Assembly: GCF_019351405.1 (NCBI RefSeq)
Contig: NZ_JAHWZX010000004.1
Location: forward strand, 124,001 to 188,000
DNA from: Stakelama flava
Lineage (GTDB): Bacteria; Pseudomonadota; Alphaproteobacteria; Sphingomonadales; Sphingomonadaceae
Reading direction: 5' to 3'
DNA length: 64,000 nucleotides
The position numbers and the translations under genes are program-made. Shown piece after piece: positions 32,915 through 64,000 of the stretch (position 1 is the first letter of the stretch; each line of letters starts with the position of its first letter). The notes under the pieces were generated by a model. That model saw nothing but the letters and a program-made list of their open reading frames with translations. It was not told the DNA's origin and did not search any database.

Positions 32915-32980
32915 GTTATAGAAGCCTGCTGCCCGCCCCCGACGCGCAGGGCGGAAAAAATTGCCGGGTATATTTTTTGC
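32915..32980. promoter_or_regulatory. flbT / flgE divergent control region
   Basis: GTTATA at 32915-32920 reads TATAAC on the minus strand, 35 nt before flbT. The sequence 32951-32968 is, on the minus strand, CCCGGCAATTTTTTCCGC, like the element before fliF. Overlapping it, GG at 32967-32968 and GC at 32979-32980 are separated by exactly 10 bases with TTTTTTGC, the spacing of a sigma-54 -24/-12 promoter facing flgE. The -24 half is weak. Confidence 0.45.
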
Positions 32981-33014
32981 GTATCGCTTCGGACCGGTCG
33001 CCCCGCGCGCCTCC

Positions 33015-33020
33015 TATCAT
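33015..33020 (+). promoter_or_regulatory. TATCAT hexamer upstream of flgE
   Basis: CTCCTATCATGGG, 46 nt before the flgE TTG; one of the recurrent TATNAT hexamers of this island. An alternative to the sigma-54-like promoter at 32967-32980. Confidence 0.35.
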
Positions 33021-33065
33021 GGGAAACGACGCGCCATTGTGGGCGCAGATGACGGGAGATCCCTC

Positions 33066-34370
33066 TTGAGCCTTTATTCGGCCCTGTACGCCGGTGTGTC
33101 CGGTCTGAGCGCGGAATCATTCGCAATGGCCGCGGTTGCGGACAACATCACCAACATCAACACCGTCGGGTACAAGGGGACGGACACCCAGTTCCGCACC
33201 CTGGTGACCGACAGCGGATTGAAGAGCAGCTATTCGGCGGGCGGCGTCGCTGCATCGCCCCAGGCGCTGATTTCGAAACAGGGCCTGCTACAGGCTTCGT
33301 CCAACTCAACCGATCTGGGGATCGAGGGCGCGGGCTTCTTCGTCACCCGCACCGGTCCGGACGCCAATGCCGATGTCGCCTTTACCCGGGCGGGATCGTT
33401 CAAGCCCGATGAATCGGGTTATCTGCGCAACGCATCCGGCCTGTATCTGATGGGCTGGCGGCTCGACGCGGAGGGCGGTTTCACCAATACCGGCAATATC
33501 AACGGCCTCGAAGCGGTGCGCGTGAGCGACCTGACCGGATCGGCGGCCGCCACGTCCAGCATCGACATTCGCGCCAACCTGCAATCGTCGGCCGAAGCAC
33601 TCGCCACTCCGTATAATGCCGGGGACATGGCGACCGGCGCGGTCGAACCGACCTTCAGCCGCTCGTTCGATGTGTATGACGCCCAGGGCGGCACCCATCG
33701 CGTCACCATGTCGTTCGTGAAAACGGGCGCGAATCAGTGGCAGGGCGAAGTCTATGCCGATCCGTCGGAAGTCACCGCGGCGAACGGCCTGCTCGCCAGC
33801 GGCGAAATCCGCTTCAATTCGGACGGCAGCCCGATCATCGACGACACGCAATATACCTCGGCGATGTTTGATCCGCTGGCGATCAACTGGACCAACGGTG
33901 CCGGTGCGCAGACGATCAACATGGGCCTCGGCACCAATGGCGGCCTTAGCGGCCTTAGCCAGTTCGGTTCGGAATCGGCGCTGATTACGTCGGATGTCGA
34001 CGGCGGAATGCTGGGCACGATTTCTTCGGTGCAGGTTTCCGACGACGGCGTGGTGAGCGCGGTGTTCGACAATGGCGTCACGCGCGACGTGTTCCAGCTG
34101 CCTATTGCCACCTTCGCCAATCCCGACGGCCTGACCCGCATGTCCGGCAACGCCTACATGGTTTCGGATCAGTCGGGCGCCTATGCGATCAACCGGCCCG
34201 GCGCGCTGGGTTCGGGCGTCGTGCGCGCGGGAACGCTGGAAGCCTCCACGGTCGATCTGGCCGAGGAATTCAGCAACATGATCCGCTTCCAGCGGGCGTA
34301 TAGCGCATCGTCGAAGATCATCACCACGGTCGACGACATGCTTCAGGAAGTCAGCAACCTGAAGCGCTGA
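33066..34370 (+). CDS. flgE: Flagellar hook protein FlgE
   Basis: 434 aa from a TTG start at 33066 with GGGAGA about 6 nt upstream. The N-terminus (SLYSALYAGVSGLSAESFAM, DNITNINTVGYKG) and C-terminus (FSNMIRFQRAYSASSKIITT) carry the axial-protein signatures; the Gly/Ser/Asp-rich middle forms the hook surface. It polymerises into the universal joint between rod and filament. First gene of flgE-flgK-flgL on the plus strand. Confidence 0.96.
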   Translation: MSLYSALYAGVSGLSAESFAMAAVADNITNINTVGYKGTDTQFRTLVTDSGLKSSYSAGGVAASPQALISKQGLLQASSNSTDLGIEGAGFFVTRTGPDANADVAFTRAGSFKPDESGYLRNASGLYLMGWRLDAEGGFTNTGNINGLEAVRVSDLTGSAAATSSIDIRANLQSSAEALATPYNAGDMATGAVEPTFSRSFDVYDAQGGTHRVTMSFVKTGANQWQGEVYADPSEVTAANGLLASGEIRFNSDGSPIIDDTQYTSAMFDPLAINWTNGAGAQTINMGLGTNGGLSGLSQFGSESALITSDVDGGMLGTISSVQVSDDGVVSAVFDNGVTRDVFQLPIATFANPDGLTRMSGNAYMVSDQSGAYAINRPGALGSGVVRAGTLEASTVDLAEEFSNMIRFQRAYSASSKIITTVDDMLQEVSNLKR

Positions 34371-34401: not shown

Positions 34402-36501
34402 GTGTCGCTGAATGACATTTTGGGATCGGCACTGTCGGGACTGGGCGCAGCGCAGTCCGGGCTGCGGACGGTTTCCACCAACATCGCCAATGTCGGCACC
34501 CCCGGTTACGCCCGCGAACGCGTGACGCAGGCGGCCGGGGTTACCGCCGGACGGGTAAGCGGCGTCGTCGTGAGCCAGCCCGAGCGGGTCGCCGACCGTT
34601 TTCTGGAAGCAGCCGCCTATATGCGCGCGACCGAGGTGGGACTGACCGAGGCGCGGTCGGACTATCTCGACCGTGCGCAGGCGCTGCTCGGCGCGCCGGG
34701 TTCGGAATCGAGCCTTCCGGCCCGGCTCGACGCGATCTCGTCCGCCGCGATCGCAATGACCGGCTCGCTTGGCGCGAGCCAGAATGCGGCCGATTTCGTC
34801 GCCAAGACAAGCGATTCGATTGCATCGATGCAGCAGCTCGACAGCGATATCGAAAGCCTCACGAGCGATGCCGATCAGGAAGTGGGCAGCACGGTAGAGC
34901 GGATCAATACGCTGCTTTCGCGCATCTACGACTTGAACTCCACCGTTTCGCGCCTTGACGGGCTGGGCAAGACGTCCGCCGGTTCGGTCGATCAGCGCAA
35001 TGCCGCCGTCGAGGAATTGAGCAGCCTGATGGCGGTCAATGTCCGCCTGCAACCCAATGGCCGGGTCAATATCGACACTGCCGGCGGCGCGCCGCTGATC
35101 GACAGTCGTCTGCGGCTGCTGTCCTACCCCAATGGCGGGGCGGGAAGCGCGCAGCCGGGCCATCCGGGGATCGAGATACGCTTTGCCGATTCCGCCGGTG
35201 GCCTTGGCGTCGCTACCGGCGATCGGATCGAATCCTCGGCGACCGGCGGCAAGCTTGGCGGGCTGCTCGACCTGAGGGACCGAACGCTGCCCGCGCTTCG
35301 CGAACAGATGGGCAGCCTGTTTACGGGCCTTGCCCGCACGCTGAACGAAGCGTCGAACGCTGCCAGCGCGGTTCCCGCGCCGTCGCAACTGGTCGGGGCG
35401 AATACACCATTCGCGTCGAGCGATCGGCTGGGCTTTACCGGCAGCACCGTCTTCGCGGTCACTGCCGCCGACGGGACCGTGACCGCGAAAACCACGGTGG
35501 ATTTCGACTCGCTCGGCACGGGCGCTACGATCGCCGATGCCGTTGCCGCCATCAATGCAGGGCTGGGCGGCGCGGGCACCGCGACATTCGCCAACGGAAC
35601 GCTTTCGATTTCCGCGAATGGAACGGGGCAGGGCATTGCGGTCGCCGACGACCCGGATAATCCCGCGCAGCGGGCAGGGGTCGGCTTCTCGCAATTCTTC
35701 GGGCTTAACGACCTTATTCGCAGCGATGACGGCATTTTGGCGCCGACCGGCTTAACCGCCGCCGACCCGCATGGCTTTTCCGATGGTCAGACCGTCGGCA
35801 TCGAATTGCGCGACGGAAGCGGGCGAATTCTAGCGCAAACGACGCTGACCCCGACAGGCGGCGGCACGATGGGCGATCTGCTCGACGATCTGAACAGCGG
35901 TCCGATGGGACAATATGGCAGTTTCCGGATCGACGATGCAGGCCGGTTCCGGTTCGAAGCCAATGCCGCGTTTGCCGGATCGACTATTTCGGTTCCGGTC
36001 GATTCGACCGACCGCCTGGGCACCGGCGCATCTTTTTCGATGATTTCGGGGTTGAGCGGTCTTTCCTCCGGCCTCCGCTCGGGCGAAGTGCGGACCGACA
36101 TCCGCAACGACACCAGCCGCTTGCCGCTCGCTTTTCTGGACACAAGCGCCGCCGTCGGCGCGAGCGCGCTCGGTTCGGCCGACACGCGCGGGGCGCAGGG
36201 CTATGCCGATGCGTTGTCGAATTCGGTCGATCTGGGCAAGGACGGCGTTCTGTCGCTGGAACGCTTTTCAAACCAGCTGCTCGGCAAGGCGGGAACCGAG
36301 GCGTCGCAAGCGCAGGACCGGCTGGCCGATGCCACTGCAAGGCGTGACGATGCCGTCAACCGCCGCGATAGCTATTCGGGCGTCAATATCGACGAGGAAT
36401 TGTCGCAGATGGTCGTCCTGCAGAACAGCTATTCCGCCGCTGCCCGGGTAATGACCACCGCCAGCGAAATGTATCAGACGCTTATCGCGATGATGGGCTG
36501 A
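34402..36501 (+). CDS. flgK: Hook-associated protein 1 FlgK
   Basis: 699 aa from a GTG at 34402 (AGGATAGGGGA about 8 nt upstream). Conserved N-terminus SLNDILGSALSGLGAAQSGL and NIANVGTPGYARERV, C-terminus LQNSYSAAARVMTTASEMYQ. Longer than the usual 450-550 aa because of an enlarged, variable surface-exposed centre. It joins hook to filament. Followed by flgL after 11 nt. Confidence 0.94.
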   Translation: MSLNDILGSALSGLGAAQSGLRTVSTNIANVGTPGYARERVTQAAGVTAGRVSGVVVSQPERVADRFLEAAAYMRATEVGLTEARSDYLDRAQALLGAPGSESSLPARLDAISSAAIAMTGSLGASQNAADFVAKTSDSIASMQQLDSDIESLTSDADQEVGSTVERINTLLSRIYDLNSTVSRLDGLGKTSAGSVDQRNAAVEELSSLMAVNVRLQPNGRVNIDTAGGAPLIDSRLRLLSYPNGGAGSAQPGHPGIEIRFADSAGGLGVATGDRIESSATGGKLGGLLDLRDRTLPALREQMGSLFTGLARTLNEASNAASAVPAPSQLVGANTPFASSDRLGFTGSTVFAVTAADGTVTAKTTVDFDSLGTGATIADAVAAINAGLGGAGTATFANGTLSISANGTGQGIAVADDPDNPAQRAGVGFSQFFGLNDLIRSDDGILAPTGLTAADPHGFSDGQTVGIELRDGSGRILAQTTLTPTGGGTMGDLLDDLNSGPMGQYGSFRIDDAGRFRFEANAAFAGSTISVPVDSTDRLGTGASFSMISGLSGLSSGLRSGEVRTDIRNDTSRLPLAFLDTSAAVGASALGSADTRGAQGYADALSNSVDLGKDGVLSLERFSNQLLGKAGTEASQAQDRLADATARRDDAVNRRDSYSGVNIDEELSQMVVLQNSYSAAARVMTTASEMYQTLIAMMG

Positions 36502-36512
36502 AAGGACCGGTA

Positions 36513-37415
36513 ATGCGCGTCGCCACCATACCGTTGCAGAAAACCACGATGGACGCCATCCGGCGCAGCCAGGAGGCGCTGGCCGACACCCAAGCGCAGC
36601 TTTCCACGGGCAAAAAGGCACCCGACCTCGCGTCGCTCGGCACCGAAGCGGTTCGCACGCTTTCCGCACATTCGATGCTGGCGCGGCAGGAATCGCAAGG
36701 GCAGGTCGCGCAGCGGCTTGGCACCACCCTGTCGCTGTACGATGCGAATATCAGTTCAATCGAAGAACAGGGCATGGACCTGAGCCAGCGCTTGCTGACC
36801 GCGATCGGCACGCGCGAAGGCGCGGGTCTGGGCGAAGCGATAGAGTCGGCATTCGCGCAGGTGCGAAGCGCGCTGAATGGCGAAGAAGCGGGAATCCCGC
36901 TCTTCGGTGGCGGTAGCGACAGCGCGCCGTTCAAACCGCAAAAGCTCGAAGACCTTGTCGGCCTCGATCTGTCAGACGCCTTTACCAACGGTAATGCGCG
37001 CGCAACCGCGCGGGTCGGCGACCGGCTGGACATGGAATATGGCGTGCTCGCCAGCGATCTTGGCACCGGCATGATGAAGGCGTTTGCGACGCTGGCCGCT
37101 GCCGGGCCGTTCGGCGACACGATCACCGAGGAACAGTCGGCGGCGCTCGCCGAGGCGCATACCCAGCTTGAATCCGCGCTCACCAATGTGCGCGCGATCA
37201 ACGCGGACAATGGCCGCCGCCAGGCCCAGGCCGAAACGCTGGTGACCCGATCGGACGAACGCGCACTGGTACTGCAGGACGTGATTAGCAGGAACGAGGA
37301 TGCCGATCTGGGGCAGGTGGCAATCGACCTTGCCCAGCAGCAGACCGTTCTGAAGGCAAGCTATTCGGTGTTCAGCCAGCTCAACAGCCTCACGCTGCTC
37401 GATTATCTGCGCTGA
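36513..37415 (+). CDS. flgL: Hook-associated protein 3 FlgL
   Basis: 300 aa. Flagellin-like ends: VATIPLQKTTMDAIRRSQEA and ADTQAQLSTGKK at the N-terminus, VAIDLAQQQTVLKASYSVFS at the C-terminus. Second junction protein between hook and filament, secreted through the flagellar export gate. Ends 76 nt before the chemoreceptor gene. Confidence 0.93.
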   Translation: MRVATIPLQKTTMDAIRRSQEALADTQAQLSTGKKAPDLASLGTEAVRTLSAHSMLARQESQGQVAQRLGTTLSLYDANISSIEEQGMDLSQRLLTAIGTREGAGLGEAIESAFAQVRSALNGEEAGIPLFGGGSDSAPFKPQKLEDLVGLDLSDAFTNGNARATARVGDRLDMEYGVLASDLGTGMMKAFATLAAAGPFGDTITEEQSAALAEAHTQLESALTNVRAINADNGRRQAQAETLVTRSDERALVLQDVISRNEDADLGQVAIDLAQQQTVLKASYSVFSQLNSLTLLDYLR

Positions 37416-45400: not shown

Positions 45401-45438
45401 TCCTATTATAGGAGAGCGAGCAGGCAATTTTTGCCTAG
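45401..45438. promoter_or_regulatory. fliL / flgF divergent control region
   Basis: TCCTATTATAGGA (45401-45413) reads TATAAT on the minus strand, 52 nt before fliL. Next to it GGCAATTTTTGCCTA (45423-45437) is a near-palindromic GGCAA/TTGCC element of the kind found before fliF and flgC. flgF starts at 45478. Both elements lie in the 124 bp shared gap. Confidence 0.45.
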
Positions 45439-48442: not shown

Positions 48443-49261
48443 ATGGGCTTTTCCGTGAACACCAATGTCGGCGCGATGGCCGCTCTTCAGAGCCTCAACG
48501 CGACCAACAAAGGCCTGGCCACCACCCAGAGCCGCATCAACACCGGTCTTAACGTCGCTTCGACCAAGGACGATTCGGCTGCCTTCACCATCGCTCAGAC
48601 GCTTCGCGGCGACCTGGGTGGTCTGTCGGCCGTCAATTCGTCGCTCAGCCGCGCCAAGAGCACGGTTGACGTTGCGACCGCCGGTGCCGAGCAGGTCTCC
48701 GACCTCGTCAATCAGATGAAGGCGAAGGCCGTTGAAGCTTCGGACGCGGGTCTGGACGATGACAGCCGCACTGCGCTGGGCAAGGACTTCGATGCGCTCA
48801 AGGAGCAGATCAATACGATCATCGATTCGTCCGAGTTCAACGGCACGAACCTGCTGAAGGCTTCGGGTGGTTCCGTTTCCGCGCTGCAGTCGACCGATAC
48901 GTCGGCGGGCACGCTGGACGTTGCCAACCAGGACCTGACTGCAGTCGTGACCGCGATCGGTTCGACCTTCACCGACGCCGCCACGGCGAAGACGATGGTC
49001 GACACGCTCGATACGCAGGCGGATGCGATCAACACCAAGCTCAGCACGCTGGGCGCGGCTGGTCGCAAGATCGAAGGTCAGCAGACCTTCGTGAGCAAGC
49101 TGTCTGACGTTATCGACAGCGGTATCGGCAACCTTGTCGATGCCGATCTGGCGAAGGAATCGGCGAAGCTTCAGGCGCTTCAGGTCAAGCAGCAGCTTGG
49201 CGTGCAGGCCCTGTCGATCGCCAACCAGGCGCCGCAGACGATCACGTCGCTGTTCCGTTAA
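48443..49261 (+). CDS. Flagellin
   Basis: 272 aa, close to the size of Caulobacter flagellins. N-terminal D0/D1 (FSVNTNVGAMAALQSLNATN, RINTGLNVASTKDDSAAFTI) and C-terminal D0 (VQALSIANQAPQTITSLFR) are conserved with a short central domain, so the filament would lack large outer domains. AGAAGGAA lies 8 nt before the ATG. Codon choice looks tighter than in neighbours (frequent cag, ctg, acc, gac), as expected for a highly expressed gene. Only flagellin gene in the window; own terminator follows. FlbT and FlaF are likely regulators. Confidence 0.95.
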   Translation: MGFSVNTNVGAMAALQSLNATNKGLATTQSRINTGLNVASTKDDSAAFTIAQTLRGDLGGLSAVNSSLSRAKSTVDVATAGAEQVSDLVNQMKAKAVEASDAGLDDDSRTALGKDFDALKEQINTIIDSSEFNGTNLLKASGGSVSALQSTDTSAGTLDVANQDLTAVVTAIGSTFTDAATAKTMVDTLDTQADAINTKLSTLGAAGRKIEGQQTFVSKLSDVIDSGIGNLVDADLAKESAKLQALQVKQQLGVQALSIANQAPQTITSLFR

Positions 49262-50364: not shown

Positions 50365-52311
50365 TTATGTGGTCAGCGCAGGTTTGGCGAGCATGCCGGG
50401 AACCGCTGCTCCCAGCGAACCGGGCAGCGAATATTTCAGCTCTTCGAGCGGGACCGGTTTGCCGAGCAGATATCCTTGCGCATAGCGATATCCGATCCGC
50501 GACGTTTCGACCAGCTGCTCCTCGGTTTCGATGCCCTCCATCGTGCATTCAAGCCCCAGCGACTGGCCCAGATTGCGGATTGCGCTGACGATCTGCCGGC
50601 CGGCGGGCGAAACCATCCGCGCTGCGAAACTGCGATCCACCTTCACGATGTCGAGCGGCAGGTCCTGTAACGTGTGCAAGCTGGAATAGCCGGTGCCGAA
50701 ATCGTCCAGCGCGACGCGCATTCCCAGCGTGCGCAACCGTCCCAGTACTTCTCGCGCGCCATCGAAATCGCGGACAAGCGATGTTTCCGTAACCTCGAAG
50801 ATAAATCGGTCGGGCGGCACCCGCGTCGACAGCACCATCGCGATCAGTTCGCGCATCGTCGTGCCCGATGCGATGTCGTCGGCAGACAGGTTGAACGAAA
50901 GGCTGATAGTAGGCGGCAGCGCCGTTATGGCGGCCAGCGCCTTTTCGAAAAGGTGCAGTGTGACCTGACCCATCTTGCCCGATCGTTCGGCGGTCAGGAT
51001 CAGCATTTCGGCGGGCACCAGCCCCAGCGTCGGCGAATTCCAGCGGGCCAGCGCCTCGACGCTGCGAACGGTCATGGTGCGCGTGTCGTAAATGGGCTGG
51101 AAATGCACCGACAGTTCGCGGTCGAGATCGGCCGATTGCAGCGTGCTTTCGATCCGCTGCGCATCGCGAACACGGTCTTCATGCGCGCTGGTGAACACGG
51201 CGCATTCGCCCCGACGATTGGTCTTAACGTGGTGCAGCGCGTAATCGGACCGCGCGAACAACGTTTCGGCGTTCGTTCCGGCGTCGGGATAAAAGGCGAT
51301 GCCGGCGGAACATCCGATCCGCAGTTCCAGATCGTCAAGATCGATCGGTTGGCGGACCAGCGCGCACAATTGTTCGACAATGCGCTGGCCCTCCGCCTGA
51401 GACCCCTGGAAAAGCAGGCCGAATTCGTCGCCGCCCAGCCGCGCGACGAACAGGCGTTTGCCGGCGCGTTCGTTCAGGCGACGCGCGGTTTCCACCAGAA
51501 CCCGGTCGCCGGTGGCATGGCCATAACTGTCATTGACCAGTTTGAACCGGTCGAGATCGAGCAGGGCGATGCAGAAGGGCGGGGCGGAACCGTTTCCGGC
51601 CTCCAGCATCTTGCGGATTTGCGCGAACAGCGACCGGCGGTTGGGCATGCCGGTCAGCGGATCGGTATGCGCAAGACGCAGATTTTCGTCGATCAGCCGC
51701 ACCGCTTCGCCGCGTTCCAGCGCAAGTGCCTGTTGCGATTTGAGCAGCCGGGTGAAGGTGCGGTGCGAATCGAACAACATTCGCAGAACCAGTCCGGCTA
51801 CTAGGGCAATGCTAAGTGCGACGGCGATGCGTACCGCGCTGCCGCTCCACAGATTATATGCGATCAGCGGCGCCAAAACCCCGGCTGTCATGTAAATCGC
51901 CACGCGCGGAGTGTGGATGAGACTCACCAGCGCGCCAAGCAGCGACAGGCCGGTAAACAGCATGATATAGCCGTAATATATGTCGCCGCTGAACGCGCCG
52001 AGCGCGAGTGCCCAGACAGTGAATACGCCACCGACCATAGCGGAAAGCCATGTGACGATCCGCAGACGCCTGGTCGATGTCTGCTCGTCCTCCGGCGGTT
52101 GCCGCGATGCGATCCACCAGTACGCCACGCGACTCAGTGCACCGCCGACCAGCAGGATCGGCAATATGGTGGTCAGCAGAACAGGCGCTACCGCATAATG
52201 GATGGCGGCAAGTGACGTGGTGTTCGCGGCGAGCAGCAGGTAATTCCACGGCAGCTGTCGGCGCAGATAATATAATTGATATTGGACCAGCGAGTATTTG
52301 CCGCTCAGCAT
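50365..52311 (-). CDS. Membrane GGDEF-EAL protein (c-di-GMP turnover)
   Basis: 648 aa from the ATG at 52311 (GAGGGCG nearby); a TTG 12 codons upstream is possible. About six membrane helices (to about residue 190) precede a GGDEF domain (intact LGGDEFGLLF) and an EAL domain. EAL residues look complete: VEALARWNSP, FNLSADDI, FEVTETS, DDFGTGYSSL, VKVDRSF. The usual RxxD inhibitory site before GGDEF is not present. It could therefore make, degrade or sense c-di-GMP; phosphodiesterase activity is the safer guess. PilZ protein at 14872 is a possible downstream effector. Confidence 0.88.
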   Translation of the reverse strand: MLSGKYSLVQYQLYYLRRQLPWNYLLLAANTTSLAAIHYAVAPVLLTTILPILLVGGALSRVAYWWIASRQPPEDEQTSTRRLRIVTWLSAMVGGVFTVWALALGAFSGDIYYGYIMLFTGLSLLGALVSLIHTPRVAIYMTAGVLAPLIAYNLWSGSAVRIAVALSIALVAGLVLRMLFDSHRTFTRLLKSQQALALERGEAVRLIDENLRLAHTDPLTGMPNRRSLFAQIRKMLEAGNGSAPPFCIALLDLDRFKLVNDSYGHATGDRVLVETARRLNERAGKRLFVARLGGDEFGLLFQGSQAEGQRIVEQLCALVRQPIDLDDLELRIGCSAGIAFYPDAGTNAETLFARSDYALHHVKTNRRGECAVFTSAHEDRVRDAQRIESTLQSADLDRELSVHFQPIYDTRTMTVRSVEALARWNSPTLGLVPAEMLILTAERSGKMGQVTLHLFEKALAAITALPPTISLSFNLSADDIASGTTMRELIAMVLSTRVPPDRFIFEVTETSLVRDFDGAREVLGRLRTLGMRVALDDFGTGYSSLHTLQDLPLDIVKVDRSFAARMVSPAGRQIVSAIRNLGQSLGLECTMEGIETEEQLVETSRIGYRYAQGYLLGKPVPLEELKYSLPGSLGAAVPGMLAKPALTT

Positions 52312-52415
52312 GTCGCCCTCGTCATTCGAGGGGAGCGGGCAGAACAAATCGTCACGGGGTGGACCGGAACCGGGGGTAAACAGGGGGCACAGACCATCGG
52401 TTCCGATCCTTCCCC

Positions 52416-54702: not shown

Positions 54703-56784
54703 TCATCCTATCGATCCGAGCGCGCGGACGCGGGCACGGGCGTGAATTTCGTTTTGCGACAATACGACCGTCGCGGGCCGGACGCGCTCGATCACCGAGC
54801 GGACGAACGGCCGGATCGTGGGATTGGTCAGCAGACACGGGATTTCACCGTCGCCCGCCAGCCGGTCATAGGTATCGCGCACCGCCGCGATAAAGCCCTG
54901 AAGCGCGGATGGCGCCATGGCGAGTTGCCGTTCGTCGCCCTGACCGACGATGCTTTCGGCAAAAGCGGTGTCCCATTCGGGCGAGAGGGTGACGATGGGG
55001 ATCGATCCCTCGCGCGCCTGCTGCGCCGAAATCTGGCGGGCGAGCCGGGCACGGACATGTTCGGTGATCTGGGTCAGGTTCTGCGTGATCGGGGACGCTT
55101 CGGCAATCCCTTCCAGGATCGTCGGAATGTCGCGGATCGATACTCCTTCGGCGAGCAGGTTTTGCAGGATGCGCTGAACGCCGGAGATCGAGATGCGCGA
55201 CGGGATGATGTCTGCGACCAGCTTCGACGAGTCGGTGTGCACCTCGTTCAACAGCTTCTGCACCTCGGTATAGCTAAGCATGTCGGCGATATTTTCCTTC
55301 ACCAGCTCGGTAAGGTGCGTGGTGATGATCGTACCGGCATCGACAACGGTCAGGCCGCGAAAGCCCGCTTCCTCGCGCAATTCGCGGTCGATCCACAGCG
55401 CGGGCAGGTTGAACACCGGTTCGCGCGTGTCTTCGCCGGGTATGCCTACTGGTCCGCCGCCGGGATTGATGACCATCAGCCGGTCGAGGCGGATTTCGCC
55501 GCGCGCAGCCTCCGTCTCCTTGATCGAGATGATATATTCGTTGGCCTTCAGCGCCATGTTGTCGAGAATTCGTACCGAGGGCAGGACGAAGCCGTATTCG
55601 GTCGCCATTTGCCTCCGGAGCGCGCGAACCTGATCGTCCAGGCGCGGCTCGCGGCTCGAATCGTTGATGATAGGCAGCAGGCCATAGCCGATTTCGATCC
55701 GCACCGCGTCGATGGCGAGGGTGCGCGAAATCGGTTCTTCCGCGCTCGCTGCCGCTTCCGCCTCGGCGGTTTCGGCGGCGCGCGCCTCACGCTGGGTTTT
55801 CTCGGCGTTGACGCGCGAAATCTTCCACGCGGCATAGCCCGACGCGCCAGCAAAGGCGGCGAAGGGGATGAAGGGCAGGCCAGGCATCAGCGCCAGCGCG
55901 CCCATCAGCACCGCGACCATGCCGAACGCCTTGGGGAAACGGAAAAGCTGTTCGCCGAGTGCGGTTCCCGCCTTGCCGGCAACCGCACCCTTGGAAACGA
56001 GCAGGCCAGCCGCGGTCGAAACGATCAGCGCAGGGATCTGGCTTACCAGGCCATCGCCGACGGTTAGCAGCGTATAGCTTTGAAATGCCTGGCCAAAGGG
56101 GACCCCGTGAATGGCGACGCCCATGATCAGCCCGACTATGACGTTGATCGCGGTGATGAGCAGTCCGGCGATCGCATCGCCCTTCACGAATTTGGACGCA
56201 CCGTCCATCGCGCCGTAAAAGCCGCTTTCGGCCTCCACTTCCTGACGACGAGCGCGCGCCTGTTCCTCGTTGATCATGCCCGCCGACAGATCGGCGTCGA
56301 TCGCCATCTGCTTGCCCGGCATCGAATCGAGGCTGAAGCGCGCCGCGACTTCGGCGATACGCCCCGCGCCCTTGGTGATGACGACGAAGTTGATGACCAC
56401 CAGAATCGCGAAGATGGTGAGGCCGATGACGGTTTCGCCACCGATCAAGAACTCGCCGAACGCACCGATGACGCCGCCCGCCGCTTCCGGCCCTTCATGG
56501 CCATGTCCCAGGATCAGCCGGGTCGAAGCGAGGTTGAGGCCGAGCCGGAGCATCGTGGCGACCAGCAGGATGGTCGGAAAGGCGGAAAGCTGAAGCGGTT
56601 TTTCGATGAACAGCGCCGTCATCAGGATCATCACCGAAAAGGTGATCGAGAGCGCAAGGCCAAGGTCCAGCATCCATGCCGGCATCGGCAGGATCAGCAT
56701 CGCGATGATGCCGACCACGCCGATCGCGAGCGCCATGTCGCGATTGTCGCCGATGCGGCCGAGGATTTGGGTCAGCTTTTCCAT
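54703..56784 (-). CDS. flhA: Flagellar export gate protein FlhA
   Basis: 693 aa. About eight membrane helices in the first 310 residues with the FHIPEP-type signature region (VINFVVITKGAGRIAEVAAR, FSLDSMPGKQMAIDADLSAG), and a large cytoplasmic domain (about 340-693) that docks export chaperones. Major export gate component, using the proton motive force. Lies 4 nt after flbD. Confidence 0.97.
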   Translation of the reverse strand: MEKLTQILGRIGDNRDMALAIGVVGIIAMLILPMPAWMLDLGLALSITFSVMILMTALFIEKPLQLSAFPTILLVATMLRLGLNLASTRLILGHGHEGPEAAGGVIGAFGEFLIGGETVIGLTIFAILVVINFVVITKGAGRIAEVAARFSLDSMPGKQMAIDADLSAGMINEEQARARRQEVEAESGFYGAMDGASKFVKGDAIAGLLITAINVIVGLIMGVAIHGVPFGQAFQSYTLLTVGDGLVSQIPALIVSTAAGLLVSKGAVAGKAGTALGEQLFRFPKAFGMVAVLMGALALMPGLPFIPFAAFAGASGYAAWKISRVNAEKTQREARAAETAEAEAAASAEEPISRTLAIDAVRIEIGYGLLPIINDSSREPRLDDQVRALRRQMATEYGFVLPSVRILDNMALKANEYIISIKETEAARGEIRLDRLMVINPGGGPVGIPGEDTREPVFNLPALWIDRELREEAGFRGLTVVDAGTIITTHLTELVKENIADMLSYTEVQKLLNEVHTDSSKLVADIIPSRISISGVQRILQNLLAEGVSIRDIPTILEGIAEASPITQNLTQITEHVRARLARQISAQQAREGSIPIVTLSPEWDTAFAESIVGQGDERQLAMAPSALQGFIAAVRDTYDRLAGDGEIPCLLTNPTIRPFVRSVIERVRPATVVLSQNEIHARARVRALGSIG

Positions 56785-56788
56785 GAAA

Positions 56789-58084
56789 TCATGCCGCCGG
56801 AATGGTGGAGATGCCGGCTTCGACGAACGCCTTCAGCTTGTTGCGCATCGTGCGAACCGAAATGCCCAGAATTTGCGAAGCGGAGGTGCGGTTGCCGTTG
56901 CACCGCTCCAGCGTCTGCAGGATCAACGCGCGTTCGACTTCTTCCACTGTCCTGCCGACCAGCGCTTCCACCGTGGCTTCGGGCGCGTCGGCTACCGCCG
57001 AACGGATGCGCGATCCGTCGGCGAGCACGATGGCGTCGCCATCGACCTGCCCGGTATCGGCAAGCAGCACTGCGCGATGCATCGCCTCCTGAAGCTCTGC
57101 GACATTGCCTGGCCAGTCATAGCTTTGGATCAGCGACAGCGCTTCCGGTGAAAGGCGCGGCACTGGCCGGCCCTCCATCGCGGCGAAGCGGGCCAGAAAA
57201 TTCCCGGCGAGCAGCGACATGTCGTTTCCGCGATCGCGCAGCGGCGGAATGGTGATGCTGGCAAGCGCAAACCGCGCGAGAAGATCGGCGCGAAAACGAC
57301 CCGCCTCCACCAATGCGCCAAGTTCGCGCGAATTGCTGGCGATCAGGCGCGGCGCCCCCGCTTCGTCGATCGCATCGAGCACCCGATGCTGCAACGCGCC
57401 GGGCAGATGGTCGATATCGCGCAAGAACAGCGTGCCCCCGCGCGCGGTGGTGAACGCCCCCCGACGCGTTGCTCTCGCACCGGGAAACTCCCCTTCGTCA
57501 TGGCCGAACAGTTCGGAAGACAGGATGTCGGGCGCTACCCCATTGCATTCGATGGTATGGAAACAATTGCCGCCGCTCGCGGCATGAACGGCATGCGCCA
57601 CGCTCTGCTTGCCGGTGCCGCGTTCGCCCGAAATCAGGATCGGCGCGTGCGAGGGTCCCATCGCTCGGGCAAAGGAAAGCGCCCTTGCGAACGCCTGATC
57701 CTCGCCGGTCAGCGTCTGTTCGGGAAGCGCGGCGATCTGTCGGATCGCGGCGGCAATCAGTTCGCGATCCGGGGGCAGGGGGATATAATCAGCCGCGCCC
57801 GCCCGGATCGCGGCGACCGCGCGTTCGGCAGGGGCGTCGATGCCGCAGGCCAGCACCGGAACCGCGAAGCGCTCCTCGGTTAGATCGGCCAGAAAGGCCG
57901 GTACATCGGTTTCAACGTCGATCATCACCATTCCCGATCCACGTTCACGCAAGATTTTCAGCGCTTCGCCCGGCGTATCGGCGAGTTCGACCTGAGCGCC
58001 TGCGTCGCGTGCGATCTGGGCCGCTTCGCGAAAAGGTCCGCCGGCCGGCCCGACCAGCAGCATCCTGACGATAGTGCAATCCAT
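56789..58084 (-). CDS. flbD: FlbD-like sigma-54-activator-type regulator with degenerate ATPase motifs
   Basis: 431 aa, domain order receiver-like (1-118), AAA+ (about 127-345), Fis-type HTH (about 385-425: RCNGNRTSASQILGISVRTM). The receiver lacks the N-terminal acidic pair and the late Lys, although Asp56 is kept, as in FlbD-like proteins. Walker A is GERGTGKQ (153-160). The GAFTGA loop reads GEFPGA (198-203), and Walker B reads GGTLFLRDID (216-225), with Arg222 at the usual Asp. WPGNVAEL and FRADLLARF are normal. Location among fliF-fliN-flhA and the presence of fliX support the FlbD assignment; sigma-54 activation is doubtful. Confidence 0.85.
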   Translation of the reverse strand: MDCTIVRMLLVGPAGGPFREAAQIARDAGAQVELADTPGEALKILRERGSGMVMIDVETDVPAFLADLTEERFAVPVLACGIDAPAERAVAAIRAGAADYIPLPPDRELIAAAIRQIAALPEQTLTGEDQAFARALSFARAMGPSHAPILISGERGTGKQSVAHAVHAASGGNCFHTIECNGVAPDILSSELFGHDEGEFPGARATRRGAFTTARGGTLFLRDIDHLPGALQHRVLDAIDEAGAPRLIASNSRELGALVEAGRFRADLLARFALASITIPPLRDRGNDMSLLAGNFLARFAAMEGRPVPRLSPEALSLIQSYDWPGNVAELQEAMHRAVLLADTGQVDGDAIVLADGSRIRSAVADAPEATVEALVGRTVEEVERALILQTLERCNGNRTSASQILGISVRTMRNKLKAFVEAGISTIPAA

Positions 58085-58085
58085 A

Positions 58086-58490
58086 TCAGCGATCCGGCCG
58101 AACGATTTCGGTCAACGTTACGCCGAGCGCCTGATCGATCATGACGACTTCGCCGCGCGCGACCAGCCGGTTGTTGACGAAGACGTCGACCGGTTCGCCG
58201 ACCCGCCGGTCGAGTTCGACCACCATGCCGGAGCGCAGGTGAAGCAGATTGCCGACCGGCATTTTCGCGCGGCCGAGCACCGCCTGCACCTTCACCGGAA
58301 CGTCATGCACGGCGGCAAGCGCGGTTGGCGCGTCGGTAGCGGTGTTCGAGGACGGTTCGCCGAACTCCTCGAACGCCGGAATGTCGCTCGCGACCATCGC
58401 CATGGGATCTTCGGCCTGGGTTTCGGTATCGGGTTCGGGATTGGCGTCGGTTGCCATGTCCATGGGACTCTCCATCATGCGTTCATCCAT
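58086..58490 (-). CDS. fliN: Flagellar motor switch protein FliN
   Basis: 134 aa, ATG overlapping the fliF stop by 16 nt. An acidic N-terminal extension (about 1-58) precedes a SpoA domain (VPVKVQAVLGRAKMPVGNLL, VNNRLVARGEVVMIDQALGV). This is the fliN of the fliF-fliN-flbD order known from Caulobacter. The other, shorter FliN-like gene lies at 13566. Forms the C-ring base with FliM. Confidence 0.92.
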   Translation of the reverse strand: MDERMMESPMDMATDANPEPDTETQAEDPMAMVASDIPAFEEFGEPSSNTATDAPTALAAVHDVPVKVQAVLGRAKMPVGNLLHLRSGMVVELDRRVGEPVDVFVNNRLVARGEVVMIDQALGVTLTEIVRPDR

Positions 58491-60091
58491 TGCCGAAGTA
58501 CGGCCGTCGCTTCGGGCGGGTTGTTGGAAACCAGATCGCCGATCCGCTTGATCGCCGACGCCTTGACCCGACCGTCAATCTGGGCAAGCGCGACATCGTG
58601 GTCGAGCATCGGAACGTCGGCCGACTGGCGCGCCTCAAGCTGTTCCAGCGCTTCGGGGTCGCCCTCCGCCGCCTGATCGGCAAGCTTCAGCATCTCGGCC
58701 TGTTCTTCTTCGGAAAGCAGGGCGGTATTTTCCTGCGGCTTTGCTTCATCCTGCGCTCCGAAGCGCGGTTTGATCATGCGAAGCGCGATCAGCCCCACCG
58801 CGGCGACGATCAGCAGTTTGACAAGTCCGGTAACCTGATCGCTGTTGAGCAGGTCCCACCATGCGTCTTTGCTGTCGGCCAGATCGTCGGGCGCGGTGAA
58901 CGGCATGCTTTCGATCACCACGCTGTCGCCGCGTTCGGGGTCCATGCCGACCGCGTTTTCGACCAGGCGGGTAAGCCGCTGGATGCGCGCTTCGGGCATG
59001 CCCTTTTCGCCGCCATCAACCATCACCGCGACGCTGAGCCGCGTGACCTGTCCGGGGTTGCGATCTACCACGCTGCGGGTCATCGAATTGGCGAAGGTGG
59101 TGTCTTCCGACGTTTCCTTGCGCGCTGACTGGCTCGTATCACCAGGAGCTGCCGGCTGGCCCTGCGCTTCGGGAAGTTCGTTGCCGACGCTGACCGTATC
59201 CGATGCCTGTTGTTCGTTGTTCTGATCGTCGCTTTCAACCGTCACCTGCCGCGCGATCACCTGAAGATCGGGGTCATAGGCGCTTTTTTCCTCACGCGTG
59301 CGGTCGCGGTCGATCTGTGCGGCGACTTCGGCGCGCACCTTGCCCTGACCGACAATCGGTTCGAGCAGGGCGACGACCTGATCGCGCAGCTTGTGTTCGA
59401 CCTGAAGCTGGCGTTCGTCGGCGTCGCTGCTGCCGCCCGCACCCGAATCGCCTGCCCGGGCGAGCAGGGCGCCGCTTTGATCGACGATCGAAACCGATTC
59501 CGGCGACAGTTCGGGCACGGCGGAGGCAACGAGGTAGCGGATCGCCTTCACCGTTTCGGCGGGCAGGCGGCCGCGCGTCTTCACGGTGACCGATGCCGTG
59601 GCGGGGCGGGCTTCGGCCGCGAACATGGCGCGTTCGGGCATGACCAGATGGACACGCGCGCCCGAAACCTGATCCAGACTCTGAATCGATTTGGTCAGTT
59701 CGCCTTCGATCGCGCGGGTTTCATTGAGCTTCGCCCGGCTGGACGAAACGCCGAAGGGCTGTTCTTCGTCAAGCACCTCATAGCCGATCTTGCCGCCCAG
59801 CCGTTCGCCGGCCATCGCCATGCGAAGTTCGGCCAGCTTGTCTTCGGGCGCCATGATCGCGGTGCCGTCGGCGGTGATCTCGAACGGTGTGTTCTGCGCT
59901 TTCAGCTTCTCGCTGATCGATGCAGCCGCCGAGGGATCAAGATCGGTGTAGAGAAATCCCATGGTGGTGTTCTCGCCGCGCAGTGCGACGAAGGCGAGCG
60001 CAAGCAGCAACGCTGCGGCCACGCCCCCCATGATCATCAGCCGCTTGGGCCCCAGCTGGGCGACAAGATTGCGTAGCTGCTCCAAGATCAC
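58475..60091 (-). CDS. fliF: Flagellar MS-ring protein FliF
   Basis: 538 aa from a GTG at 60091; a TTG two codons later is better spaced from a GGGGA and may be the real start. Two membrane helices (about 17-37 and 438-458) flank a periplasmic region with ring-building motifs (GYEVLDEEQPFGVSSSRAKL, ARVHLVMPERAMF), and the C-terminal FliG-binding tail is present. FliF starts basal body assembly. Leads fliF-fliN-flbD-flhA-fliK-flgD; a 132 bp gap separates it from fliH. Confidence 0.95.
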   Translation of the reverse strand: MILEQLRNLVAQLGPKRLMIMGGVAAALLLALAFVALRGENTTMGFLYTDLDPSAAASISEKLKAQNTPFEITADGTAIMAPEDKLAELRMAMAGERLGGKIGYEVLDEEQPFGVSSSRAKLNETRAIEGELTKSIQSLDQVSGARVHLVMPERAMFAAEARPATASVTVKTRGRLPAETVKAIRYLVASAVPELSPESVSIVDQSGALLARAGDSGAGGSSDADERQLQVEHKLRDQVVALLEPIVGQGKVRAEVAAQIDRDRTREEKSAYDPDLQVIARQVTVESDDQNNEQQASDTVSVGNELPEAQGQPAAPGDTSQSARKETSEDTTFANSMTRSVVDRNPGQVTRLSVAVMVDGGEKGMPEARIQRLTRLVENAVGMDPERGDSVVIESMPFTAPDDLADSKDAWWDLLNSDQVTGLVKLLIVAAVGLIALRMIKPRFGAQDEAKPQENTALLSEEEQAEMLKLADQAAEGDPEALEQLEARQSADVPMLDHDVALAQIDGRVKASAIKRIGDLVSNNPPEATAVLRQWMNA

Positions 60092-60138
60092 GATCCCCGT
60101 TTCGATTGCGGGAGCGCGCTCGGCGTCCCTTTGATCGA

Positions 60139-60191
60139 ACTATAGAAGGGTGCCGGAGGGGCAGGTTTTGCCGGGTAGGAAAAATTTGCCG
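60139..60191 (-). promoter_or_regulatory. fliF control region with CGGCAA-type elements
   Basis: On the minus strand: CGGCAAATTTTTCCTACCCG (60191-60172), overlapped by CCCGGCAAAACCTGCCC (60174-60158), then CTTCTATAGTTC with TATAGT at 60144-60139, 48 nt before the GTG. The CGGCAA pattern resembles what I recall of the ftr sites bound by FlbD in Caulobacter. That match is from memory. Confidence 0.5.
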
Positions 60192-60223
60192 CCCCGTTCG
60201 ATATGCGGGGCGGCGCAGAAAAA

Positions 60224-60892
60224 TCAGTCTTCGCGACGCGCGGCCAACAGGCCTTCCAGCTCTTCGCGAACGGCGGCTTCGCGCGCTGCGCGATCGACCA
60301 GCAGGCCGCCCTCGTCCCATTCGATACGCGCGTCGCCCGGTGCCAGATCGGGATCGGGCGCGACATGCAGGTTCAGCCGGCGGCGATCCGCCGCCTGACG
60401 CTTCGTAATGCGTTCGGTGATGTCGCTTTCCAGGTCGGGATGCACGCGGATCAGCAATTCGGTGCCGCGTGCGACCTGCGCCAGCGCCCGGCCGATCGCA
60501 TCGTCGATCGCATTGGCGGGATGTTCGGCAAGCGCGCGCCCGGCGATGTGCCCGGCGGCGGCAAGCGCCAGTTCGGCCGCATCGCGCGTGAGTTCGCTGC
60601 ACGTCGTGTCCAGCGAACCGCCGATGCTTTCAAGGTCCGCCTGAATCGCGTCGACCGCAGACAACAGCGCCGCCTCGCGCTCGTTGCGCGCCTGGGTCAG
60701 CCCGGCTTCGAACCCGTCCACACGGGCACGGGCCAGTTCGGCATGATGGTCCTCGCGCAGTTGTTCCAGTTCGGTTCGAAGCGTTTCGATTTCGATCGCC
60801 ATCGAATCCGATATGCCCGCCTCGCGCGCGGCAGGCATGTCCACGAAGACGCGATCGAAGGCGAAGGGGCGGGTCTGAAAGGACATATCCAC
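60224..60892 (-). CDS. fliH: Flagellar export ATPase regulator FliH
   Basis: 222 aa from a GTG at 60892 with AAGGAG 9 nt upstream; the ATG two codons later is too distant from it. N-terminal Phe-rich start (SFQTRPFAFDRVFVDM), then coiled coil (about 30-75) and a FliH/V-ATPase-stator-like C-terminal domain (about 100-222). Binds and controls FliI. Follows fliG by 13 nt. Confidence 0.88.
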   Translation of the reverse strand: MDMSFQTRPFAFDRVFVDMPAAREAGISDSMAIEIETLRTELEQLREDHHAELARARVDGFEAGLTQARNEREAALLSAVDAIQADLESIGGSLDTTCSELTRDAAELALAAAGHIAGRALAEHPANAIDDAIGRALAQVARGTELLIRVHPDLESDITERITKRQAADRRRLNLHVAPDPDLAPGDARIEWDEGGLLVDRAAREAAVREELEGLLAARRED

Positions 60893-60905
60893 GAAAGCGC
60901 GCTCC

Positions 60906-61937
60906 TTACATGATCATCGTATCGTCGCTCTTCGGATCGACGAGAACGATCTCGCCGGTATCCGCGAGCATTTTGGCAAGGCGCACCAGTTCGCCCTGCG
61001 CCTCTTCGCAATCGCGTGCGCGCACCGGTCCCATGCCCGCCATGTCCTCGCGCAGCAGCTTCGCCGAACGTTCGGTCATGGTGGAGAAGAACAGCGTCTT
61101 GATCTCCTCGGGCGCGCCCTTCAGCGCCAGCGCCATCTGACGCTTGTCGGCCTGGCGAGCGATGACGCCTATGGCGATCGGCATCAGATTGGCCAGATCC
61201 TCGAAGGTGAACATCAGTTCGCGGATGCGTTCGGCCGAATCGGGCGCTTTCTTGTCCAGCGCGTCGAGCATGGTTTCTTCGGTCGACCGGTCCATGGCGT
61301 TGAAAATCTCAGCCATGGTTTCGTGCGGATCGCGGCGCTGCGCGCGCGCGAAGTTTGCCATGAATTCGGTTTTCAGCGTCGCTTCGACCTGGGTCAGAAC
61401 TTCCTTCTGAACCGTATCCATGCGCAGCATCCGCTGCACCACGTCGACCGATATTTCGCGCGGTAACACGCCCAGCACGCGGGCGGCGTGATCCGATTTC
61501 AGCTTTGACAGGATCACCGCGATCGTCTGCGGATATTCGTTTTTCAGATATCCTGCCAGAACGCCTTCGCTGACATTGGAAAGCTTGTCCCACATGGTGC
61601 GACCGGACGGGCCACGGATATCCTCCATGATCTCCTTCACCTTGTCCGCGGGCATGATCCCGGCAAGCAGGCGTTCGGTTGATTCAAACGATCCGTGACA
61701 GGTTTCCATTGCGGCGATGTCGCTCGAAAACTGTACGAGCAGATGCTCGACCACGGGGGCGGGAACGCGGCCCAGCAGCGCCATCGAACTGGACAGCTCC
61801 TTCATCTCCTCGACCGAAAGTTGGTCCCAGATCGGGCCGCCATATTTCTGGCCCAGCACCAGCATCAGCGCAGCGGCGCGCTGACGCGGGTTGAAGCGTT
61901 TGAGTTCGGGCGGCTCGGCGAGCTGAGTCATGACCAT
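60906..61937 (-). CDS. fliG: Flagellar motor switch protein FliG
   Basis: 343 aa. Three-domain FliG: N-terminal (AAALMLVLGQKYGGPIWDQL), middle (KNEYPQTIAVILSKLKSDHA) and C-terminal (RIRELMFTFEDLANLMPIA, TERSAKLLREDMAGMGPV). FliG sits on FliF and provides the charged torque helix facing MotA. Starts fliG-fliH and is divergent from the large beta-propeller gene. Placement before fliH with fliF downstream is a rearranged order. Confidence 0.95.
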   Translation of the reverse strand: MVMTQLAEPPELKRFNPRQRAAALMLVLGQKYGGPIWDQLSVEEMKELSSSMALLGRVPAPVVEHLLVQFSSDIAAMETCHGSFESTERLLAGIMPADKVKEIMEDIRGPSGRTMWDKLSNVSEGVLAGYLKNEYPQTIAVILSKLKSDHAARVLGVLPREISVDVVQRMLRMDTVQKEVLTQVEATLKTEFMANFARAQRRDPHETMAEIFNAMDRSTEETMLDALDKKAPDSAERIRELMFTFEDLANLMPIAIGVIARQADKRQMALALKGAPEEIKTLFFSTMTERSAKLLREDMAGMGPVRARDCEEAQGELVRLAKMLADTGEIVLVDPKSDDTMIM

Positions 61938-62050
61938 AATCGTATTTTTCCCCTGACTACGGGTTTTTCCCGGCGTGGTGCGTCGGAACCCGTGCGTGCC
62001 CGTCTATTATGGAGGCACGATCGGATGGCCGGTCGCGTGGAGGTGGAATG
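61938..62050. promoter_or_regulatory. fliG / beta-propeller gene divergent region
   Basis: 113 bp. Two copies of TTTTTCCC (in 61944-61954 and 61963-61973) recall the TTTTTCC part of the fliF/flgC element. CTATTATGG at 62004-62012 reads TATTAT towards the plus gene (about 40 nt) or CATAAT towards fliG (about 70 nt). Confidence 0.35.
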
Positions 62051-64000
62051 ATGGATATTGCCTCGGGGCTTGCAGGATTGAGTTTGCTGGGCGGGGACGC
62101 GAGCCTTTTCTCGTCCTATGCCGCAAGCACCGCGAGCACCATCGAGACGCGGGCTGTGCGCGAAGCGAAGGCGCAGTTCACGCTTCCCGAAACGACGCCG
62201 CCATGGAAGCTGGCGACCGCAACCACGTCCGCCGCGGCGCAGCTTTCGGCCATTCAGCGCATGCGCACGCTGATCGACAAGCCGGAAACGGGAACGCGTA
62301 CGCTGCCCGACGACGTCCAGACATCGTTTACCACCTGGAAAGCGCTCGACCGGCTGCGCCTGCTTGCCGAAGCCGCGGTGAAGCCCGGTGCGGGCGCCGC
62401 AACGCGCGAGGCGCTGAACAAGACCTTCACCCAGGGGTTGAGCGACCTTCAAAGCTACCTCTCCACCGCGCCCAGTGACAAGCTTACCTTGGCTTTCGAC
62501 AAGCCGGTGCGCCGTGCGCAAACCACCGCGGTCGAACCGGGCCTTACCAGCTACTCCACCAGCATTACCGGCAAGGCGGTCACCGAGAATCGCGATGATG
62601 TGATGAGCGGGCTGACGGGCACGGAGCGTTTCCGCATCCAGCTTGCACAGGGCAGCCGAAGCGACAGCGTCACCGTCGATCTGAGCAATCTGAACGGACC
62701 ACCGACGCTCGACAGCGTCGCGACGCTCATCAATCAGGCGATTTCGGCAATTCCCTATCGCGACGCCAATGGCGATGTCGTGTTGCAGGATGACGGCAGC
62801 GCCGAACCGAAATGGAAGGTTTCGTTCGAACCGCGCAAGACCGAGGATGGCTGGGCGCTGGAGGCGAACCGCCAATCCTATGAAAGCATTTCGATCGATC
62901 AGATCGATGCTCCTGATGCCGTTCTGGTCGCGACGGGGATAACCGGGCTGGAAACCGCAACCGCTGCGCGGGTCATGCGAATCGACGATCCGACAGGCGA
63001 GATGAGCCGCAAGACGCTGGCTACCATCGCCGCGCATGATCGGCTGGACCCCGATCTGGCAGTGAAGACGACCGCGGACGCCGTGGCGACCGATGCCGAC
63101 GGCTTCGGATATGTCCTTGGCACCGCCGCCGGCGATCTGGGCTCGCAGCGCGCGGCGGGCGAACAGGATCTGTACCTGACCAAGATGGACAGCCTGGGCA
63201 ACGTCGTCTGGCAGCACAGCCTGGGCGCGGCCGAAAGCGCAAGCGGTGCGGCGCTGTCGATCGCCGCCAATGGCGATGTCGTGCTGGCCGGTAATGTGAG
63301 CGGCAAGTTCGACGGCGCGGACAGCGACGGCGATATGCTGGTCGCGCGGTTCGATACGGACGGAAACGAAAAATTCTCGACGCTCGTCCGCGCGGTCGGG
63401 ACCGACACCGCGACCAGCGTGCTCGCCGCGCCCGACGGCTCGATCTATGTCGGCGGACAATCCTCGCCCAATGGCGGCGACGCGTTTATCGCGAAGCTGG
63501 ATTCGGAAGGGCGCCTGCGCGAACGCCATGCCTATGACGCGGGGGGAAGCGAAACCATCGCATCGCTTGCCATGGGCAGTGACGGCAAGTTGCTGGCGCT
63601 GACGCGGGAAGGGGCGCAATCCTCGCTGCGTTTCCTCGATACCGCCGATCTTTCGGCTGAGGTGTCGCGCATCGACCTTGGTACGTCCGACGCACGCGCG
63701 ATCGCGGTCGATGCATCGGGCAATATTGCGATCGGGGGAACGACGCTTGCCGCACTTCCGGGAACGCAGGTCAACAGCACGGTGTCTTCGCGCGACGGTT
63801 TCGTCGCCCGGATGGCGGCGGACGGTAGCGGACTTGCTGTCACCTATCTGGCGAGCGACGCCAGCGATCAGGTCGACAGCCTCGTCTTTTCAGGCGACAC
63901 CCTGTATGTCGGCGGGCGGACCAACGGCGTGCTGGGCGATGCGAAAGGCGGGGCGGTCGACGGCTTCGTCGCGCGGCTGGATGCTACCACCGGCGCGATC
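62051..64000 (+). CDS. Large flagellar-locus protein: hook-IN-like segment plus beta-propeller repeats (3' end outside window)
   Basis: 650 codons visible, no stop before the window end. ATG at 62051 chosen over the ATG one codon earlier because GGAGGT ends 6 nt before it. No Sec signal peptide and no cysteine in 650 residues, both typical of proteins exported by the flagellar apparatus. Residues 60-160 are helical. FRIQLAQGSRSDSVTVDLSN (194-213) and SVATLINQAISAI resemble the IN motif of FlgK/FliD hook proteins. From about residue 340 repeats of about 55 residues (DADGFGYVLGT, AANGDVVLAGN, APDGSIYVGGQ, DASGNIAIGGT) form an SBBP-like beta-propeller. Family unknown; divergent from fliG. Confidence 0.75.
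   Translation, partial: MDIASGLAGLSLLGGDASLFSSYAASTASTIETRAVREAKAQFTLPETTPPWKLATATTSAAAQLSAIQRMRTLIDKPETGTRTLPDDVQTSFTTWKALDRLRLLAEAAVKPGAGAATREALNKTFTQGLSDLQSYLSTAPSDKLTLAFDKPVRRAQTTAVEPGLTSYSTSITGKAVTENRDDVMSGLTGTERFRIQLAQGSRSDSVTVDLSNLNGPPTLDSVATLINQAISAIPYRDANGDVVLQDDGSAEPKWKVSFEPRKTEDGWALEANRQSYESISIDQIDAPDAVLVATGITGLETATAARVMRIDDPTGEMSRKTLATIAAHDRLDPDLAVKTTADAVATDADGFGYVLGTAAGDLGSQRAAGEQDLYLTKMDSLGNVVWQHSLGAAESASGAALSIAANGDVVLAGNVSGKFDGADSDGDMLVARFDTDGNEKFSTLVRAVGTDTATSVLAAPDGSIYVGGQSSPNGGDAFIAKLDSEGRLRERHAYDAGGSETIASLAMGSDGKLLALTREGAQSSLRFLDTADLSAEVSRIDLGTSDARAIAVDASGNIAIGGTTLAALPGTQVNSTVSSRDGFVARMAADGSGLAVTYLASDASDQVDSLVFSGDTLYVGGRTNGVLGDAKGGAVDGFVARLDATTGAI

Follow-up and report, generated by a model that had tools for sequence, protein, structure and literature searches.

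A gene so far labelled a possible regulator looks like an exported flagellar part with a propeller head, and it may be the missing filament cap. The gene runs off the end of the window, the 64,000-nucleotide stretch of Stakelama flava DNA analyzed here, and very likely belongs to a family that already has a name, FlaEY, called FlaQ in Sphingomonas S2M10; this assignment rests on the gene cluster, the name, gene annotations and a control with model NF047494. We consider it likely that the protein is axial, exported and flagellar, and we see about an even chance that it is the axial protein of an alphaproteobacterial-type flagellum that replaces FliD, most probably as the distal cap. To our knowledge, what caps the filaments of swimming Alphaproteobacteria without FliD is an open question. 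Having a named candidate whose architecture is predicted makes that question directly testable and, if the reading is true, an annotated 'regulator' becomes a structural part of the flagellum.

The gene and its flagellar surroundings

The preliminary description of this stretch had pointed to a long cysteine-free frame, divergent from fliG and lacking a Sec signal, and all three observations held. From the ATG at 62051 the frame stays open to the window end, and the remainder, taken from the same contig, adds 741 bp, giving a translated product of 896 residues with no cysteine. A GGAGG lies ahead of this ATG (62039-62043); starting instead from the in-frame ATG at 62009 would lengthen the protein by 14 residues, and the nearest orthologues (L033-L035) begin at the equivalent of 62051. 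The gene and its main neighbors are as follows.

62051..64000, + strand: gene of the flaEY family, of whose 896 codons the first 650 fall in the window (stop at 64741, past the window end)
60906..61937, - strand: fliG, divergent neighbor (FliG_C match at C29:184942-185262)
32961..34370, + strand: flgE (hook), same flagellar cluster, by family search
34402..36501, + strand: flgK, by family search
36513..37415, + strand: flgL-like gene (Flagellin_C scores 23.0 bits, exactly its cut-off; N-terminus and position judged by eye)
48443..49261, + strand: flagellin, the genome's only Flagellin_N match at E <= 0.001, by domain search
62004..62015, + strand: promoter-region element CTATTATGGAGG, between fliG and flaEY

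Cysteine is absent from 44 of 47 aligned orthologues, with three cysteines in total among 44,309 residues. By a crude hydropathy rule the window protein has no Sec signal from either start, nor do 43 of the 47 orthologues, and Sec-dependent export, which would have spoken against a flagellar route, therefore gains no support from that rule. Serine, threonine, asparagine and glutamine together make up 25% of the protein and histidine 0.3%, like the axial proteins of the window, whereas its cytoplasmic flagellar proteins have 14-17% and 1.2-1.9%. This composition and a probably disordered N-terminus (residues 1-29, of low model confidence) are both compatible with a flagellar type III substrate, neither being a test of export.

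The window's flagellar set also includes FlgD, FliK, FliM and the export ATPase. A FlgB-type gene starts 2 bp after flaEY; its best NCBIfam model gives E 6e-32 without reaching the model's cut-off. Beyond it lie anti-sigma and sigma genes in convergent orientation. Other names used here, such as FliF, FliH, FliN, FlbD, FliL, FlgF, FlgG and CheA, are presumptive, being read from the sequence without a family call. Three side observations concern this region: the order fliG-fliH-fliF-fliN-flbD-flhA at 54703-61937, with fliF behind fliG and fliH, recurs in most of the loci L032-L060; a GGDEF-EAL protein gene (50365-52347) sits between flgD and the flagellin gene; and two adjacent Ferritin_2-domain genes lie past the sigma/anti-sigma pair (L001 7366-9363).

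Divergent fliG and downstream flgB flank the gene in all 29 loci L032-L060, which come from sphingomonads and one metagenome-assembled genome (MAG) titled Proteobacteria. The sphingomonad loci thus have the flagellar-cluster location of FlaEY, which is also reported for Sphingomonas sp. WG (PMC8921679, in the passages on that cluster). The family extends well beyond sphingomonads, and the other 28 of the 57 named loci come from Kordiimonas, Emcibacter, Rhodothalassium and others; their flanking sequence, at most 6 kb long and in some cases truncated by the contig, contained none of ten reference genes at E 1e-4. Genes read by eye as yggT- and folD-like lie upstream in several of the loci inspected.

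The promoter-region element resembles an exact element, CTATTATAGGAG, at 45403-45414, in a divergent region whose bordering genes were identified by eye as fliL and flgF. With the consensus CTAT-N1-3-AT(A/G)GGA, in which the spacer varies in length, and up to two mismatches allowed, the window holds 10 matches against 1.5 expected, and 24 of the 29 named loci compared, a set that includes L036-L060, have the element ahead of flaEY. The shared element may serve as a flagellar promoter or as a site for a regulator.

Predicted architecture of the product

We modeled the full-length orthologue from Stakelama pacifica (identity 70% over the best segment; 47 sequences; pLDDT 85.6, pTM 0.75) and, separately, residues 1-299 of the window protein itself (pLDDT 78.5, pTM 0.50). 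In the predicted order, helices open the chain and a FliD/FlgK-like domain comes next, then the seven-bladed propeller and a second domain of this IN type, before helices close the C-terminus. In the orthologue, a low-confidence start precedes helices at 63-72, 89-112 and 118-141, a bba-bbb domain at 195-286, the propeller at about 289-678, another bba-bbb domain at 710-772 and helices at 823-845 and 869-887. Helices are thus predicted at both ends of the protein across the two models; the end helices of FliD are paired (D0/D1). On the window protein, the predicted parts map as follows.

62231..62467, + strand: N-terminal helical region, residues ~61-139 (both models)
62552..62914, + strand: first IN-like domain, residues ~168-288, including 194-233 (1-299 model, Foldseek, VIA-align 2)
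62909..64000, + strand, end past the window: seven-bladed beta-propeller, residues ~287-676 (NCBIfam, fold comparison of the orthologue model)

The SBBP-like repeats of the preliminary description are part of a predicted full seven-bladed propeller. The NCBIfam SBBP-propeller model reached E 1.6e-24 and 86 bits, far under its 400-bit cut-off; CylK was matched by sequence in the PDB (E 2e-21), and the modeled propeller aligned with CylK at Z 44.5 and with a designed seven-bladed propeller at Z 32.7. Pfam SBBP was reached in 18 of 20 aligned family members, and its threshold was not reached in the window genome. When the whole orthologue model was searched, the best 50 matches listed all aligned through the propeller (289-692), which makes the absence of flagellar proteins among them uninformative. 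The propeller is shared with CylK and with LipL53-type SBBP proteins. A CylK-like enzyme was rejected, as His391 of CylK (mutated in entry 7fh8) aligns with threonine in the window protein, giving no sign of an enzyme; so was a lipoprotein, on the low propeller-model score and the lack of any cysteine for a lipobox, which with the missing Sec signal (crude rule) sets the protein apart from the LipL53 type.

The preliminary description had placed a hook IN-like segment at residues 194-233. The domain recognizable as IN by sequence in relatives is instead C-terminal (residues ~702-786) and lies outside the window, and two IN-type domains flank the propeller. We built a C-terminal profile (L032 residues 690-897, 40 relatives) and searched it against 177,635 PDB sequences, revealing FliD sequences first (9gsx, E 9e-7; 6sih, E 2.2e-4), with others starting at 0.01; these two whole-sequence values each rest on two stretches, the best single stretch giving 3.8e-4 and 6.7e-3. 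Seven of the 40 members carry a Flagellin_IN match at E <= 0.05, the strongest at 1.9e-5, and Pfam called no IN domain in the window protein. Aligned by hhalign with a set of 20 FliD proteins, the C-terminal profile gave E 2.3e-4 (probability 44), and the whole-family profile a probability of 13. The IN (beta-grasp) head domain of FliD is thus found with the family profile and not with the window protein alone. A family profile run over 240 class genomes gave three out-of-family matches confined to the second IN domain, and NCBIfam and Pfam named them FliD, FlgE and FlgK. By sequence, this is therefore a domain of flagellar axial proteins generally rather than of FliD alone, and it does not single out a cap. 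According to the part of PMC1949818 that treats it, the beta-grasp domain is present in FliD, FlgL and FlgK and has relatives in Mu-like phage tails.

For the first domain, the likeness to IN is one of fold, and it is weak. The three top PDB matches of the 1-299 model in Foldseek were FlgK (E 0.006), FliD (0.015) and a 630-residue chain, probably FliD, of a Campylobacter junction-cap complex (0.11), none below 0.001. In VIA-align 2 the part superposed on FliD was residues 167-293 at most; this was seen with 12 entries that have FliD or cap in the title, at Z 5.9-6.6 and rmsd 2.7-3.7, all under a Z of 8 and weak by the tool's own guidance. The rows confined to this region were FliD or cap entries and one filament-assembly complex; longer rows spanning it included FlgK, flagellins and two unrelated proteins (9goa, 1k90), and unrelated helical bundles scored the same Z as FliD, but over residues 58-145. 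By sequence the segment was unrecognizable as IN: Pfam gave no IN match for 194-233, the profile of the region scored poorly against FliD (probability 2.3) and without support against the second IN region (2.1), and an N-terminal profile found nothing below E 0.4 among PDB sequences. The proposed segment thus survives as a modeled fold, which it probably shares with the C-terminal IN domain, and the fold prediction, suggested earlier as a check, came out weakly favorable.

The family resembles FliD in its IN domain (by sequence and probably by fold), its predicted end helices, its beta-rich head and its alternation with FliD across genomes (below), and the window protein, like all 20 FliD proteins taken, has no cysteine. 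It differs from FliD in lacking FliD_N and FliD_C matches, in carrying two IN-type domains around a propeller and in length (896 residues versus 449-537 for the 20 FliD as picked). FlgK and FlgE share the IN domain, but their Flg_bb_rod and Flg_bbr_C end domains are absent from the window protein by Pfam.

Distribution and alternation with FliD

Neither FliD_N nor FliD_C has a Pfam match anywhere in the Stakelama flava genome, which extends the earlier observation that no fliD was recognized in the window. We next counted both families in an order sample of 196 genomes, of which 135 bear FliG and 61 do not. FlaEY was matched in 81 genomes before three (G097, G022 and G028; short or propeller-only) were dropped from the counts. 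The FliG-bearing genomes comprised 71 with FlaEY only, 60 with FliD only, none with both and four with neither, in line with the proposed co-occurrence with fliG and absence of fliD. Three of those four (G028, G075 and G106) are 67-85% complete. The fourth, G175, from the same family as the window genome, has FliG and FlhA and no match to FliD_N or FlaEY.

The class sample (240 genomes, 140 with FliG, sharing G000, G005 and G012 with the order sample) was counted with 14 of 35 matches, propeller-only or IN-only, dropped and G221 and G432 kept as partial members, giving 18 FlaEY only, 45 FliD only, none with both and 77 with neither. Independence would predict 5.8 genomes with both (Fisher p 7e-4, uncorrected for kinship). 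The 77 with neither indicate that some flagella may do without either protein. FlaEY occurred in 14 families and FliD in 39, the single shared one being the window genome's own.

Within that family, the FliD genomes examined carry a different flagellum. Across 20 of their regions (13-16.5 kb), FliG is 22-32% identical to the window FliG and no FlhA or FlgB relative was found; a tree built on 38 FliG rows places 12 such genomes in a separate clade, and the window FliG nests among alphaproteobacterial ones (100/100). Much of the mutual exclusivity is therefore lineage, and a swap of FliD for FlaEY within one flagellum of this family was rejected. From other families, the FliD genomes G231 and G245 have alphaproteobacterial-type FliG and no FlaEY, so that alternation also occurs inside that FliG lineage, on two rows only.

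Alignments comprised the window gene with 19 of 29 relatives L003-L031 (A1), 47 of the 57 loci L032-L088 after near-copies, wrong starts, X and partial genes were left out (A2), and subsets of 44, 40 and 31 rows (A5, A6 and A7); 23 of 80 loci (L089-L111) match mainly the propeller and were excluded. A second, more distant FlaEY paralogue with frames of ~1020-1080 residues occurs in G021, G048, G060, G086, G089 and others of genus g49, and in a Hyphomonadaceae MAG (L087 3352-7704) the gene forms part of a ~1450-residue open frame, far longer than the others.

A candidate cap and its alternatives

A filament cap is the best single reading, which we hold at close to even odds, because the family alternates with FliD, its head has IN-type domains and its cluster contains hook, junction and filament proteins and no FliD. 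A cysteine-free chain with a probably disordered N-terminus would leave unfolded through the flagellar type III gate and refold at the tip, where the predicted terminal helices would, like those of FliD and FlgK, contact the hook or filament end. The outer head, two IN-type domains and a seven-bladed propeller predicted with good confidence, would as an oligomer enclose a chamber for the folding and insertion of flagellin, by analogy with FliD. We propose more tentatively, at somewhat less than even odds, that FlaEY is a distinct type of cap, with two IN domains around its propeller, that serves many FliD-less alphaproteobacterial flagella (sphingomonads, Kordiimonas, Emcibacter, Rhodothalassium and probably Caulobacter) and has been mistaken for a regulator. 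Swimming Rhizobiaceae (PMC6913195) and Rhodothalassium (PMC11762602) are described as lacking FliD in the relevant parts of those papers, and Rhodothalassium salexigens carries the candidate gene (L076).

The protein could instead be a further hook-filament junction protein or adaptor, which we regard as unlikely. FlgK and FlgE also have the IN domain, and FlgK is the first Foldseek match of the N-terminal part; against this, FlgK and a FlgL-like protein are already encoded in the genome, both of the PDB sequences that the C-terminal profile matches below 0.01 are FliD, with no others under that value, and it is FliD with which the family alternates.

The preliminary description had also offered a sheath-like adhesin. 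Its flagellum-linked axial-type protein, with IN domains and a propeller in a FliD-less flagellum, stands, but nothing in the analysis supports an adhesin or sheath role. That the protein decorates the surface of the hook or filament is suggested by its large propeller, related to surface lipoproteins, and is improbable: outside family f1, the family is carried by 68 of 71 FliG-bearing order genomes, which fits a core part better, and in sphingomonads the gene sits between fliG and flgB.

Slightly less probable still is the role suggested in the FlaEY literature, that of a regulator in the cytoplasm acting on the expression of flagellin and chemotaxis genes. The passages of PMC8921679 that concern the gene describe FlaEY of Sphingomonas sp. 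WG as a possible regulatory protein, with no mention there of an IN domain, export or a cap, and cite Caulobacter flaE and flaY as modulating flagellin expression and an S2M10 mutant in the homologue flaQ with fliC up and flgI down. Pfam and NCBIfam gave the window protein no DNA-binding or signaling domain, and it has IN-type domains, no cysteine and a composition like exported axial proteins. Altered expression would also be expected of assembly mutants, and under the cap reading such effects of flaEY and flaQ mutations would be secondary to failed filament assembly. Our search of open-license literature found no link of FlaEY to a cap or axial role, although the older Caulobacter flaE/flaY and S2M10 papers fall outside its scope, so this absence is no proof of novelty. 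The NF047494 SBBP-propeller model, which matches the window protein, also matches Caulobacter vibrioides, but Thermotoga and Methanosarcina too.

Finally, it is very improbable that this propeller protein has no dedicated flagellar role and is linked to flagella by phylogeny. Presence in non-flagellated relatives had been named as evidence against a flagellar role: four drafts of one genus (G045, G051, G084 and G101; 92-96% complete) retain flaEY with FliG, FlhA and Flagellin_N unmatched, whereas the same sample has 71 FliG-bearing carriers. The copies in G051 and G101 contain two and three internal stops and the other two none, and some genomes of this genus have a second, more distant copy. 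The gene is present in seven of the 61 order genomes without FliG and absent from 54; G009 and G021, with no FliG match, still have FlhA and flagellin, and G104 (69% complete, no FliG match) has both FlaEY and FliD, its FliD adjoining a flagellin on another contig. The partial class members G221 and G432 also lack FliG, FlhA and flagellin matches. Outside sphingomonads the gene lies away from the flagellar genes tested, but the IN-type domains and the fliG and flgB flanks in all 29 loci and on a megaplasmid weigh against a non-flagellar role. This Sphingobium sp. V4 plasmid (L175, NZ_CP081002.1, 433560-452193), 1.25 Mb long and typed as conjugative, carries flaEY with fliG to flhA and flgB, and transfer on such a plasmid may be how the FlaEY-type flagellum came to its patchy distribution among sphingomonads.
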